Assembly (NCBI GenBank): GCA_002104905.1
Contig: MCFE01000301.1
Span: 1-64,000 of the forward strand
Origin: Basidiobolus meristosporus CBS 931.73
Taxonomy: Eukaryota > Basidiobolomycota > Basidiobolomycetes > Basidiobolales > Basidiobolaceae
Direction of reading: 5' to 3'
Length of the DNA stretch: 64,000 bases
Part shown: piece after piece, positions 42,036 through 62,765 of the stretch
How the letters are laid out: each line of letters begins with the position of its first letter
Position numbering within the stretch: the stretch's first letter is position 1
Notes under the pieces: generated by a model
Seen by the model: only the letters and a program-made list of their open reading frames with translations
Database searches by the model: none
What the model was told of the DNA's origin: nothing
Made by a program: the position numbers and the translations under genes

Positions 42036-44213
42036 CTAAAACGGCACGTAGTCTAGCGCTGGTCCAACGGATTCTTGTTTGATTAGATTCTGCTGGCGTT
42101 CCAATAGCTCGTTCTCAAGGTCCTGGATACGTCGATTAAGTGCTAGGAATAGGATTGACCTGGGCAGACTAGTTGCTGTTTGCGATAGATCGATGGCCAC
42201 TAATGATGCGAACGGTTTAGCCACATGTCGTTCCAGCTTCGTCGAATATGATGATATCAGATTCATAGTTAAAGTTACTCACCAGAATTCTCGGTCATCC
42301 CACTCAGTCTTCTATTATTGAACCAACCGCGGAGTGCATGTAACGTTAAATCCATACGGTTAGCGAGCTCGATGATCTGTTGGTGGTTGGGATACGGTGT
42401 GAGTTCATAAACTTTTTCCAGCTCCGCCACAACTTCCGGGCCGAATAGTAAGAATCCATCTCTTCGGTTCTCCAATTCGGACTTGCGGTCACGACGACGA
42501 AGCTCCTTGAACCATCGCTCGATATTCTACGGGAAAGAATGTCATTGGATGCATTAATAATAAGCACCTTCGTAGTCACCTCGACAGGACCGCATACCTT
42601 GAATGTCTCATTGTACTGGTCTGCGAGGCCTTGTATCATCTCTCGAGATGGGTATTTCACTTTTTTGTGCATTTCCTCTACAGCCATATGCAGAGGGTCA
42701 TTGTACTCGCCCACTCTGGACTGCCGTTCACGAAACCAGGCATTAATCTTAAGATAATCGATCCCAAGCTGCTCAGCCAACTCTCTACGTTGAATAGAAG
42801 TGGGGTATCCATGGCACTCTTCGTAGAGCTTGCTCATTGCTTCCACAACGTGATCTGGAAACCTGGCCAGCCTGGTAGCTTTCTTGTTTCTAGGCTTGGT
42901 ACTCTTTTCCGTAAGTTGTCTCTTTTCTGGAACAATCTTCGGATGCGGATTCGATGGGTGTTGATAAACATCAATCCCTCTATCTCGATCTTCAGCACGA
43001 CGCTTATAAAACCAGTGCAATACTGACTAATACAGAGATTAGTCCAGTGCACTCTCGTATTCACGCACATGTATGTATTCTACCTTTTCACTTCGTTTCA
43101 AGTGCTCTGCAAGCTCCTTTAACTGCTCAGGGCTAGGAAACGGCGTTTGTTCGTAATAGTCGTGCAGCGTTTGTATTGCTTCCGGAGTATATTTGACTAA
43201 TAAAGGCTTGATCTCGATGCCATTGCTTCTGTCACGATCGCGCCGCTTGGAAAACCAGCGCTTGATTCTCTGAATTCAGCAGCATAGTTAGAATCTTGAA
43301 TCGTTCGCCAACTCAATGCAAACACCAACCCGTAAAGTAACGTTGTTTTCGCTAGCAATTTGCTCCATCACCGGAACTGGTGGGTAGACAGTCTCTGCAT
43401 AGACTTTTTCACACGACTCCTCGAGTTTCTCCAAGTCGCATGCTGGAGCACTGCAAACTACTGGAGAAATGATTTCCGCACCTTTCTGACGTAACTGGTT
43501 TCGTCTATTCGTAAACCACAAGATGATTTTCTGAACACATTCGAGTAGGTTTAGACAGGTGTGTCGGTTTGTAAAACAGATGGGTTGAAGAAATCACATC
43601 CTACCTTTCTATCCACCCCCAGCTTGTGAGCAAGCCGTGTATAGTCTTGTGTTGAATGGTATTTACTCTGTTGGAAGATGGGTTCGAGGTAAAAGGCAAG
43701 AGAGGATTTTTTGCTGGTATCAATGGGTTCGTGATAGGAGGGAGTCAAGTAATCGACGCGTTGTTTGGTTTTTGAGTAATACAGTTTCCAAAAATCTCGC
43801 ACTACTTTCGGGTCTATGTCTATCTCTTTGGCAACCGCCGTCAGTTGCTCGTCAGTGGGGGAAGCGGTGGCCAAAATGAAGGCTCGAATTTTTTCCACCG
43901 CACCAGAACTCAGGTATTTTTCATCGTTCCTAGCGGCCTTCCTTCGTCGGTTTCTGAACCAGCTTCTTGTGGGCTTAAGGAAAAGTCAGTAAGTGACGGT
44001 ACTGTAAACGCAGTGTCGGCCGACTGGTGCATATACCTCCTGTTCTATGGAGCAATCCTCGCAGACCACACTGTATTCATATTGACTGGGGTATGGGTTG
44101 CAACTGTAGTACTCTTCTAGACGTTCCCGTAAATCTCGGTCCAAGTGACGCGTGATGGAGTTTTTGGCAGTTTTTTTTTGTGCTTCGGGGCTGACTTCTG
44201 CTTCAGAAGGCAT
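42036..44213 (-). CDS. Multi-homeodomain protein with eight tandem homeodomain-like repeats
   Basis: Seven exons join exactly (44213-44037, 43973-43605, 43530-43330, 43269-43084, 43026-42598, 42526-42283 and 42175-42036) into about 581 residues. Eight consecutive repeats each end in a homeodomain recognition helix. In order these are SWFRNRRRKAAR (WF at residues 64-65), DFWKLYYSKTKQR (120), LWFTNRRNQLRQK (187), RWFSKRRDRDR (254), HWFYKRRAEDR (316), AWFRERQSRV (408), RWFKELRRRDRK (459) and GWFNNRRLSGM (522). In all eight, 32 residues separate the helix-1 anchor (LEK-like) from the Trp-Phe, the spacing of a canonical 60-residue homeodomain and not TALE. Asn51 is kept only in repeats 1, 3 and 8. 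The C-terminus forms a leucine-rich coiled coil (LNRRIQDLENELLERQQNLI). It is probably a nuclear DNA-binding protein; targets are unknown. Confidence 0.9.
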
Positions 44214-44875: not shown

Positions 44876-45632
44876 ATGCGTGAATATAAATTGGTGGTTC
44901 TTGGCTCTGGTGGTGTTGGTAAATCCGCATTGGTAAGCGTCGGGACCAACTTTTCCTCCGTTGAATACCATGCGGGCCCTGCTGAAGATGGTTTACTTAC
45001 GGCTTATCGTTTGTCAAACACTTATCTAGACCGTCCAATTTGTACAATCAATATTCGTTGAGAAATACGACCCGACTATCGAGGATTCTTACCGAAAGCA
45101 GGTAGAAGTGGACGGACAGCAATGCATGTTGGAGATTTTGGATACTGCTGGTACAGAGCAGTTTACCGCCATGCGAGATCTTTACATGAAGAACGGGCAA
45201 GGCTTTGTGCTGGTTTATTCCATCACCTCTATGGCCACTTTCAATGACTTGGCCGAGCTACGGGAGCAAATTGTTCGAGTAAAAGACACTGAGCAGGTAA
45301 GCCGAATGAGCTACTCTTATCCCAACCACCGTAGCTACCATATTTGGAAGCCACTCGCCACCTATAGTATATCCAATTAATGTAGCTTTTGTGGTTGGAT
45401 CTAGGTTCCTACAGTGCTGGTTGGAAATAAATCCGACCTGGAGGATGATAGATGTGTTTCTCGCGAGGTTGGCGCCGAGTTGACACAACACTGGCCAGGG
45501 GCCACTTTCTTCGAGACATCCGCCCGTAAAAGAATCAATGTTGATGAGGCGATTTTTGACCTGGTGCGACAAATTAACCGCCAAAATCCTGGGCGCTCGG
45601 ATAAGCGTAAAAAGAAGTGCATTATTCTTTAG
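44876..45632 (+). CDS. RSR1: Rap1/Rsr1-type small GTPase
   Basis: Ras-family switch that in fungi marks sites of polarised growth. Three exons (44876-44932, 45030-45296 and 45405-45632) give 183 residues. [19 protein letters not shown] contains the P-loop, with a wild-type Gly12 equivalent. [12 protein letters not shown] is the effector loop. [14 protein letters not shown] has Thr at position 61, the Rap signature; Ras has Gln. NKSDLED is the NKxD motif, and [10 protein letters not shown] corresponds to the SAK motif. A polybasic tail (SDKRKKK) and the CAAX box CIIL predict geranylgeranylation and plasma-membrane targeting. Regulators would be Rap-type GEF and GAP proteins (Bud5/Bud2 in yeast). 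Confidence 0.96.
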
Positions 45633-59264: not shown

Positions 59265-62200
59265 ATGAGTGGTTCCATCAAGGTAAGCATGGATTTAACG
59301 AGTAGTAAGTTTTATGAGACTGTTGCGAATCCTCTGACAAAACAATAGTTTGAACTTAATTGGAGTGCCTTAGAGCTGGGGGTTCCAACGAAACCCTACC
59401 GTGGCCCACTCACTTTCAGTTGTATAAGTACGTATGGCCTTCACGAGATCGGGATTGTTGCTCGGGGTCTACCCGCTTCCATGGAGCTCGCCGATATAAA
59501 GAAATACTTCTCTGCCTGGGGTGACGTTGGAACATGCAGCGTGCTGAAAAGCAATGGTGCGAGTAAAACCGGGTTTATCAATTTCCGACCACCACCGCTT
59601 ACTCTAGAATTTATGGACCACGACCAGCAACCCGTTCACCAGGGTGTGAGAGGTAGAACCCTCGAGATAGACTTCACTTCTCAAACCGCCAAAGACCTGC
59701 AGCTGCGAGAAAAAGGGGAGCTGAAGAAGAGAGTCATTTACACCTCGGCAAATTGCTTCGACATGGGGGCGTTTTTGCGTAGCGGTAGGTTTCTACGGCA
59801 ATGGAGGGCTACTAACCAATGTCTAGTTGAGATCAACCTGAACAGGCGGATCATATTTCTGAGGTTTCATCACGAAAATGATGATTACCAAATCGGGATT
59901 AGGTTTGGTGATGTCCACCGGCAGATTGTGTTAGATAGCAGCGAAGAAGACGTGTATGTAATGTACATTCAGACCACACATCCCCCTTTTATGTGGCGCC
60001 GACAAGAAGAGCCGGCAAGAAGTACCCCGCGTTCAGACAATTGGTGCGAGGAGAATTCTTGGGTCCGTGTCCCGTATATTGTTGATCAACGTGATGATAA
60101 CGATGCAAGAATCAGCATTGGGGATTTTGGTGCGTATCGTGTCTGTGTTCCTTCCATCAACTCTTATGGCGAGCTGTTCAAGGATTGCATCAACGATCTA
60201 ATGCGCTTTAATCTTACTTCAAACAAGACCAATGCCTCGATTCCCTCGGTGGTGGATACGTCGACGCTGCCCGTTATAGATATCCATTCGTCGTTCCCGT
60301 TCGAGTTGGCCTACTTGACCGAATGTTTGATCAGAGCGCAAAAGCTTAGCTTATACAACATATCTGAGGAGTGGGTGGCATTCATAAATGGTCTGGATAT
60401 AGCGGTTGCTAAGAATGTCCTGATGCGTATGACGGAGGCTCGGGATGTAATTGAGGATCCTATGGTGTATTCTCAAAGAGTGTTGCCAGAGCTTTCAAGT
60501 ATCATGGTCAACCTGAAGGATATCTCTGCGCACAACATATGGGTCCGTAGAGCTGTTGTCACTCCAAGCAAGATCCATCTTCTGCCACCCACTCTGGAAC
60601 TATCGAACCGTGTATTGAGGCACTTTCACCAATATCAAGAATCCTTCATCCGGGTGACCTTTTCTGACGAGCATTTCGAGAAGCTAGGGAGTAGCCGGGA
60701 GTTGTATCAAACCCTATTGGATCGTTTCGAGGAGGTTTTGACTGAAGGTTTTGATGTCGCCAATCGTCATTACCGGTTCCTAGCCTTCTCCTCCTCACAA
60801 CTCCGCGAGCACAGCTGTTGGTTTTTTGCTGATACGCCGGATGGCATGGACGTCAACGTTATTCGTGGGTGGATGGGGGATTTCAGCGAAATCAAGAACG
60901 TGGCTAAACAGGCTGCGCGCATGGGGCAGTGTTTCTCTAGCACCCGCGCGGTGAAGATTCTAACCAAAAAGCAGATCAAGGAGATACCGGATATAACTCG
61001 CAACCGCTACATCTTCTCCGATGGCATAGGCAAGATCGCCATGTCGTTGGCTACTGAGATTGCTAGCATATACAATCGTGACATCATCCCCGGCGCGTTT
61101 CAGATTCGCCTTGGTGGCTATAAGGGGGTTCTCGCAGTTGCACCCGACGACGAAATGGACGGCTACTTAGTCCACCTGCGTCCAAGCCAATTGAAATTCA
61201 AATCTGACCATACTGCACTGGAAATCATCAGGACTGCTGAATATATACCAGCTTATCTCAACCGACAAATCATTGTGCTGTTGACCACCCTGGGGGTCCC
61301 TGACCAGGTGTTCGTGGACATGCATGAGAAGTTCCTGCAAGAAGTGGATGGGATCCTCAGCAACGAGGGATTGTCCTTGAAATTGCTGGCTCTTCACTAC
61401 AGTTCAAGCTGGGTGAGTGACGTTTTAAGGAAGATGGTGCTTTCCGGATTTCTGAGGCTAGGAGACACCTTTACCAAGAATTTATTGAGCTTACTTAAGG
61501 TCCAGGTTCTGAAAGACATCAAGGAGCGCGCTAGGATACCGATCGAGCAGGGTGCTCATCTGACAGGTGTTCTAGATGAGACAAACACCTTACGAGAAAA
61601 TCAAGTGGCTGTTCGTTTCACCGACCCTCACGATCCCAGTACTATTAGAAGCTATGTGGGGCCAGTGTTGGTGCTCCGAAGTCCATGTTTGCATCCAGGA
61701 GATGTACATATGGCCGAAGCCGTAGATTGCCCCCAGTTGCATTCTCTTGTCAATTGTATTGCTTTTTCTACGCAAGGCAGAAGGGATCTTCCTAGTCAAT
61801 GCAGTGGAGGTGATCTTGACGGTGACACGTACATGGCTATATGGGACGAACGTCTGTTTCCACTACAAGAGAAGCACCCGTCGAGTAACGCTAGTCAGGA
61901 GGAGATATCCGATCAAGAGATAACAATCAGAGATACCGTGGATTTCTTCCTCAATTACATTATCACCGACAACCTGGGTGAGATTGCCAATTCCCACCTA
62001 GCCTGGGCCGACCAGACACCGGAATCTGCATTATCGGTTCAGTGCGTTCTACTGTCACAACTGCATGACCAAGCAGTGGATTTCATCAAAACCGGAGTTC
62101 CTGCGGAGATGGTCTCCTCACTACGCCCGAGTGTCTGGCCGGATTTCATGAACAAGCTGCCTAGAAAATCATACGAGTCCACGAAAGCTCTGGGCGTAAT

Positions 62201-62765
62201 GTACAGAAGTGGTGCCAAGAGGCTAAGCCGCAATTTCAAGCACACCGGCGACCTAGCGGTTTGTTTCGACGAGAAGCTGGTTGTGCCTGGGTACGAAGCG
62301 TACATAGTGGAGGCCAGACGGTTGAAGCATGAATACGATATAATCCTCAGAGATCTGATGAACCAGTATGAAATCAAGACCGAGGGTGAGGTGATCTCGG
62401 GGTATATCCAGACCTTCCCATCGATGGCGAGCCGTAAAAAAGATAAGTTCGTCCTTAGAGAAACCCTCGGGAACGTGGTCAACGCTATATGGAAAGCCTT
62501 TCGGGAGAAATTCGACGACTTTTCAGCCGCTGCTGCCGATGACCAATGGCGCAGGAGAAAAGCCAGTGCCTGGTACTATGTGACATGTCATCCAGACGAA
62601 ATCGAGCTACAGAAGAATAGGGAATATTGGGGAGTTGATGATACAGACACCCCGGTGGCCTGTGCGACAATCATGCACAGGCAGGACGAAAAGCCGACAT
62701 TCCTCTCGTTTCCCTGGATTGTTCACGATATATTGCGGCTGATCTTGGAGTCAGAGAATCTTTAA
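59265..62765 (+). CDS. Cellular RNA-dependent RNA polymerase of RNA silencing
   Basis: It copies single-stranded RNA into dsRNA for Dicer, as in quelling and small-RNA pathways (QDE-1/Rdp1/RRF-1 family). A tiny exon 1 (59265-59282, MSGSIK) and an uninterrupted exon 2 (59349-62765) give about 1144 residues. The N-terminal 150 residues look RRM-like (IGIVARGLPASMELADIKKY, GFINFRPPPLTLEF). The catalytic core has NRYIFSDGIGKIAMSLATEI, FQIRLGGYKGVLAVAPDDEM and LRPSQLKFKSDH. The active-site signature is CSGGDLDGDTYMAIWDERL, with the DxDGD triad of aspartates. YIITDNLGEIANSHLAWAD and RKSYESTKALGVMYRSGAKR are further conserved blocks. The length and the intact catalytic residues indicate a functional enzyme. 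Confidence 0.97.

Follow-up and report, generated by a model that had tools for sequence, protein, structure and literature searches.

A conserved array of eight homeodomain repeats in one Basidiobolus protein, with the base-reading residues mostly lost

Can a single fungal polypeptide consist mainly of homeodomains, and if so, what could so many copies be for? The question is raised by a gene of Basidiobolus meristosporus CBS 931.73 (42036..44213, minus strand; seven exons, six introns, 589 amino acids) lying in a window of 64,000 nucleotides, that is, the whole stretch of DNA analysed, from an assembly of 89.0 Mb in 1311 contigs. An earlier note had described this gene, from the letters alone, as encoding eight homeodomain repeats in one protein. 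Its parts are the following:

42036..44213, minus strand: gene, from start to stop codon; same gene as K493DRAFT_303721
44213-44037, 43973-43605, 43530-43330, 43269-43084, minus strand: exons 1-4, spliced by hand
43026-42598, 42526-42283, 42199-42039, minus strand: exons 5-7, spliced by hand; stop codon 42038-42036
43929..44165, minus strand: repeat 1 (residues 17-74), 32.6 bits with Pfam when taken alone; Asn51 present
44036-43974, minus strand: intron in repeat 1, between homeodomain residues 43 and 44
43761..43934, minus strand: repeat 2 (residues 73-130), divergent, FW for WF, Leu at 51, intronless
43486..43733, minus strand: repeat 3 (residues 140-197), Pfam 39.8 bits; Asn51 present
43604-43531, minus strand: intron in repeat 3, at 43/44
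43225..43458, minus strand: repeat 4 (residues 207-264), Pfam 30.6 bits; Lys at 51
43329-43270, minus strand: intron in repeat 4, at 43/44
42982..43212, minus strand: repeat 5 (residues 269-326), Lys at 51
43083-43027, minus strand: intron in repeat 5, at 43/44
42883..42981, minus strand: basic linker between repeats 5 and 6, similar in B. ranarum
42706..42882, minus strand: repeat 6 (residues 360-418), Pfam 33.4 bits; Glu at 51; intronless
42482..42705, minus strand: repeat 7 (residues 419-469), Pfam 24.5 bits; Glu at 51
42597-42527, minus strand: intron in repeat 7, at 43/44
42293..42466, minus strand: repeat 8 (residues 475-532), Pfam 45.1 bits; Asn51 present; intronless
42075..42161, minus strand: C-terminal helix, a/d heptad pattern mostly hydrophobic, conserved in B. 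ranarum

The introns are short (57-83 nt), and all six begin with GT and end with AG. The gene itself is already known as a deposit, K493DRAFT_303721, a hypothetical protein entered as 'Homeobox domain-containing protein' (NCBI, UniRef) with precomputed homeodomain Pfam labels, and its B. ranarum orthologue, K7432_000157 (588 residues), is 71-74% identical over the full length and has the same eight repeats and tail; the architecture shared by the two supports the single gene that had been proposed. The length originally given, about 581 residues, has to be corrected to 589, since the acceptor at 42199, chosen because B. ranarum has a counterpart of the stretch added before the tail helix, retains residues common to both species; 581 residues would fit an acceptor at 42175, if that was the one selected. 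With respect to the hand splice, the deposited model contains five extra residues (VEYIH) within repeat 5 that B. ranarum does not have, its donor for intron 4 (43083-43027 in the window) being seemingly 15 nt too late, and this insertion is likely to be a splice-site error.

As regards the identity of the repeats, the Pfam homeodomain model (PF00046) matches the whole protein at E 1.1e-59 in seven stretches, the query being a 570-residue variant that differs in the last acceptor, a choice that leaves the repeats unaffected. The repeat-by-repeat comparison with a homeobox profile that the earlier note had called for, carried out with the same model, places repeats 1, 3, 4, 5, 6, 7 and 8 over the cut-off of 22.9 bits (24.5-45.1 bits), and repeat 2 alone is below it, without a Pfam homeodomain match. 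A profile built on 31 homeodomain sequences taken from elsewhere in the genome, excluding L001-L005, L051, L053 and L054, gives 121.9 bits for the protein, against 9.4 for the best of 1000 shuffles; taken singly, repeats 2, 1 and 7 reach -2.4, 7.5 and 6.0 bits and do not surpass the best shuffled stretch (7.6 bits), so that for these three the homeodomain assignment depends on Pfam, the orthologue or the fold.

In an AlphaFold2 model of the B. ranarum orthologue, eight three-helix sets at homeodomain spacing are followed by a C-terminal helix, which is the outcome anticipated for a structure prediction of the array; the model was built on a two-row alignment (mean pLDDT 63.8, pTM 0.30), and with two sequences behind it the placement of the repeats relative to each other is not fixed. 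The stretch of repeat 2, folded alone, is likewise predicted to adopt a homeodomain-like fold. Foldseek gave no match at E <= 0.001 for either predicted model; for that of the orthologue, the double homeodomain of DUX4 fills the top six rows (E 1.4e-3 to 4.8e-3). The fold was identified by means of VIA-align together with the sequence profiles, and the predicted three-helix homeodomain fold places the array within the homeodomain superfamily (PF00046). A sequence search of solved structures returned, among the best 60 of 148 rows, nothing beyond POU chains and chains with one or two homeodomains (best E 3.9e-6). Eight homeodomain repeats in one protein are thus upheld, seven by Pfam and repeat 2 by its predicted fold, and the array is confirmed as real and above chance.

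The internal geometry of the array is less uniform than had been thought. The 32 residues between the anchor of helix 1 and the WF of helix 3, said to be exact in all eight repeats, are found in seven, whereas repeat 6 has one residue more, located in loop 1; the FW that replaces WF in repeat 2 is as reported. Repeats 6 and 7 are closely packed, with 51 residues from W48 to W48. To call the protein almost entirely repeats is fair, except for the basic linker of ~33 residues between repeats 5 and 6 and a tail of 54 residues. This linker, of low pLDDT in the orthologue (residues 334-366), is a possible nuclear-localisation signal, judged by eye. The tail contains a helix in the AlphaFold2 model (orthologue residues 551-579), with F553, L556, I560, L563, L567 and L574 at the a/d heptad positions; the hydrophobic spacing and its conservation in B. 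ranarum indicate that it is likely a coiled coil, in line with the earlier proposal.

The history of the array can be read in part from its introns, which in repeats 1, 3, 4, 5 and 7 occupy one and the same codon position (homeodomain residues 43/44, phase 0), a coincidence of ~1e-9 by chance if one intron fell randomly in each of five repeats. Since the five share codon and phase, internal duplication is the most likely way in which the array arose: a homeodomain unit already bearing the intron would have been copied until it formed eight repeats, and in the simplest reading the intron would have been lost afterwards from repeats 2, 6 and 8. The identity between repeats of one protein is 10-31% in B. 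meristosporus and 4-33% in B. ranarum, that of each repeat with its B. ranarum counterpart is 50-84%, and in a tree of 50 rows and 58 columns all eight pair with their counterparts, from which it follows that all eight repeats were in place when the species separated. At a deeper level this tree, in which 19 of 47 forks are open and the bootstrap had not settled, groups repeats 4-8 with the locus L055 at 82/77 and gives repeat 2 a very long branch; the seven better repeats do not come out of it as a single clade, which is nevertheless compatible with the data (p-AU 0.27).

Four other homeodomain loci, L052-L055, were considered as progenitors. None is an obvious source: their introns within the homeodomain, read by eye in these four genes, are at 46/47 in three and at 44/45 in L055 instead of at 43/44, the remaining 34 loci being judged solely by an unbroken match. 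The locus L055 (G000:C596:7000-10000), with Arg at position 51, is the sole one of the 38 other loci without Asn51. At least 38 homeodomain matches exist elsewhere in this genome, a count that duplication or the presence of two haplotypes may inflate, given the near-identical pairs L022/L023, L034/L035 and L049/L050. Fungi usually have fewer than a dozen homeobox genes, according to a review (PMC4901127).

The residues by which a homeodomain reads DNA have been largely lost from the array. In standard homeodomains Asn51 reads adenine and Arg5 reads the minor groove. Arg5 is called important in the same review and is present there in 99 of 106 Drosophila homeodomains (PMC4901127). In the array Asn51 persists in three of the eight repeats (1, 3 and 8), its place being taken by Leu in repeat 2, by Lys in repeats 4 and 5 and by Glu in repeats 6 and 7, and Arg5 is found in none, so that even repeats 1, 3 and 8 may bind in a way unlike that of a standard homeodomain. 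At the other loci of the same genome the two residues occur in 37 and 36 of 38, respectively (Fisher, p 2.3e-4 for Asn51 and 1.7e-7 for Arg5), values that overstate independence, as related loci, some of them near-identical pairs, are counted as independent. The list of loci is a lower bound; L051, which lies in the same place as L004, was dropped, and position 5 was offset by hand in L001-L003 and L055. Taken as a whole, the array lacks the combination of Asn51 and Arg5 that defines a canonical DNA-reading homeodomain.

Arg53 is retained in six of the eight repeats, repeat 2 having neither it nor Asn51, and every recognition helix carries a net positive charge. Between the two species residue 51 is identical in repeats 1 and 3-8, and Leu occupies it in both copies of repeat 2; in the recognition helices 116 of 136 positions are identical, compared with 240 of 328 across the remainder of the repeats (the extra loop residue of repeat 6 having been removed by hand), and in repeats 4-7, which lack Asn51, the figure is 61 of 68, with the weaker values in repeats 2 (9/17) and 5 (12/17). 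This conservation speaks against plain decay, with the possible exception of repeat 2, and constraint seems to act on the altered helices; part of the conservation could reflect the packing of the core, because the helix contains W48 and F49. What is new here is precisely this: the base-reading residues are mostly lost and most recognition helices are still conserved.

With these elements, the explanation that best accommodates the data, and to which we would give about an even chance, is that of a dimeric nuclear factor, judged from the sequence and the predicted model. Dimerised through its coiled coil and located in the nucleus, the protein would contact bases mainly by the three repeats that still have Asn51 (1, 3 and 8). 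The other five, their recognition helices altered but mostly conserved, would add a grip on the DNA backbone or bind partner proteins, in such a way that the dimer could hold separate sites together or recruit a complex. The bridging or scaffold role suggested in the earlier note would be compatible with the data.

The main rival to such a multivalent DNA-gripping factor is a pure protein scaffold, in which the homeodomain fold would have been reused as a helical repeat without sequence-specific DNA binding. It is a possible but less likely reading: the disappearance of Arg5 from eight repeats and of Asn51 from five, the Glu at 51 of repeats 6 and 7 in both species, the double loss in repeat 2 and the heptad-patterned tail are what such a scaffold would be expected to display, but against it stand the Asn51 kept in repeats 1, 3 and 8, the Arg53 of six repeats and the positive charge of every recognition helix. 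A neighbouring idea, conceivable and offered tentatively, is that the homeodomain became a repeat scaffold in eight copies, with its base reading mostly stripped and its helix-3 surfaces kept, in a dimeric protein for chromatin bridging or assembly that would have ceased to be a conventional transcription factor.

That all eight homeodomains of a transcription factor combine to recognise one long composite DNA site, in the manner of the two in DUX4, is on the unlikely side. The idea of an extended site, put forward when the array was first noticed, agrees with the DUX4 double homeodomains that head the Foldseek rows and with the short spacing between most repeats, but it is weakened, as far as eight canonical homeodomains are concerned, by the scarcity of Asn51 and the absence of Arg5, as well as by the proximity of repeats 6 and 7, which leaves little room for a free arm of repeat 7. 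Finally, it is very improbable that adjacent single-homeodomain genes were mis-spliced together or that the gene is a decaying pseudogene, because, even if the splicing was done by hand and one intron is placed differently in the deposited model, that model exists, the orthologue keeps the whole architecture, and the joins are in frame, with five sharing one codon position.

The neighbouring genes give no functional hint for the eight-homeodomain protein. Seven of ten neighbouring frames match families (the C-terminus of Rua1, weakly, methionyl-tRNA synthetase, a V-type ATPase subunit, a Ras-like GTPase, Syf1, a mitochondrial-type kinase and RNA-dependent RNA polymerase) and three match none. 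The Ras-family GTPase gene (44876-45632, plus strand), whose ends were set by eye and of which one exon was scanned (E 1.6e-23), is divergent from the array gene, with ~660 bases between the start codons. A long open frame at 59349-62762 (plus strand) matches RNA-dependent RNA polymerase (PF05183, E 2.8e-184), which we take to be of the RNA-silencing type.

So far the gene is known from two Basidiobolus species: protein searches found only the two Basidiobolus proteins among the 7996 candidates sharing most words, a filter that distant multi-homeodomain proteins could escape, and the same two with residues 217-530 as query (5911 candidates). The one fungal genome searched, that of the window itself, showed no second array, the matches being five inside the gene and nine weak others (E 0.0025 to 0.53), and a search of the open literature showed no fungal multi-homeodomain protein among the entries listed (for one query, the best 10 of 40,676). 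What is unusual is the eight-repeat array together with the loss of base-reading residues, and not the homeodomain fold.

Among the known systems, vertebrate ZHX1-3 and HOMEZ also carry several divergent homeodomains per protein (PMC2211742). The ZHX proteins bear zinc fingers, whereas in the Basidiobolus protein, fungal and with eight repeats, no zinc-finger family of any kind appears among the Pfam rows listed up to E 10 in either species, which sets it apart from ZHX and ZFHX; the HOMEZ model (PF11569) gives a weak echo of 14.6 bits against a cut-off of 21, and the HOCHOB double homeodomain (PF17943) 10.6 and 14.2 bits against 26.3. DUX4 resembles the array in its neighbouring homeodomains with a short linker, but has two DNA-reading domains in place of eight mostly non-canonical ones, and belongs to a different lineage. 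The multi-homeodomain families named in the earlier note are animal proteins with fewer copies or another context, but for known families at large this is not supported: CEH-100 of Caenorhabditis elegans has 12 tightly packed homeodomains (PMC4448998, PMC4901127), and the liverwort Marchantia has MpBELL2/3/4, non-animal proteins with several (a, b, c) each (PMC8476127). The latter belong to the TALE class of plant genes and have three homeodomains at most, and the Basidiobolus repeats are without the TALE loop extension, seven having no additional loop residue and repeat 6 a single one.

A further likeness is to CEH-100 together with CEH-99 (four homeodomains) and CEH-83 (five), which also comprise several divergent homeodomains and are confined to a single lineage (PMC4448998). 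As in CEH-100, many divergent and tightly packed homeodomains make up most of the Basidiobolus protein, a likeness of architecture; the same paper gives the nematode proteins no obvious orthologue in other Caenorhabditis species (PMC4448998), whereas all the Basidiobolus repeats are kept in a second species. The common intron position constitutes an unusually clear record of how an array grew, and a single polypeptide whose repeats differ at residue 51 (Asn, Lys, Glu or Leu) opens a way to test the role that a homeodomain can play after base reading is lost. In the papers cited here, large arrays are described in animals and smaller ones in a liverwort, and a conserved fungal array of eight adds another lineage; if these arrays are unrelated, the multi-homeodomain architecture would have arisen more than once.
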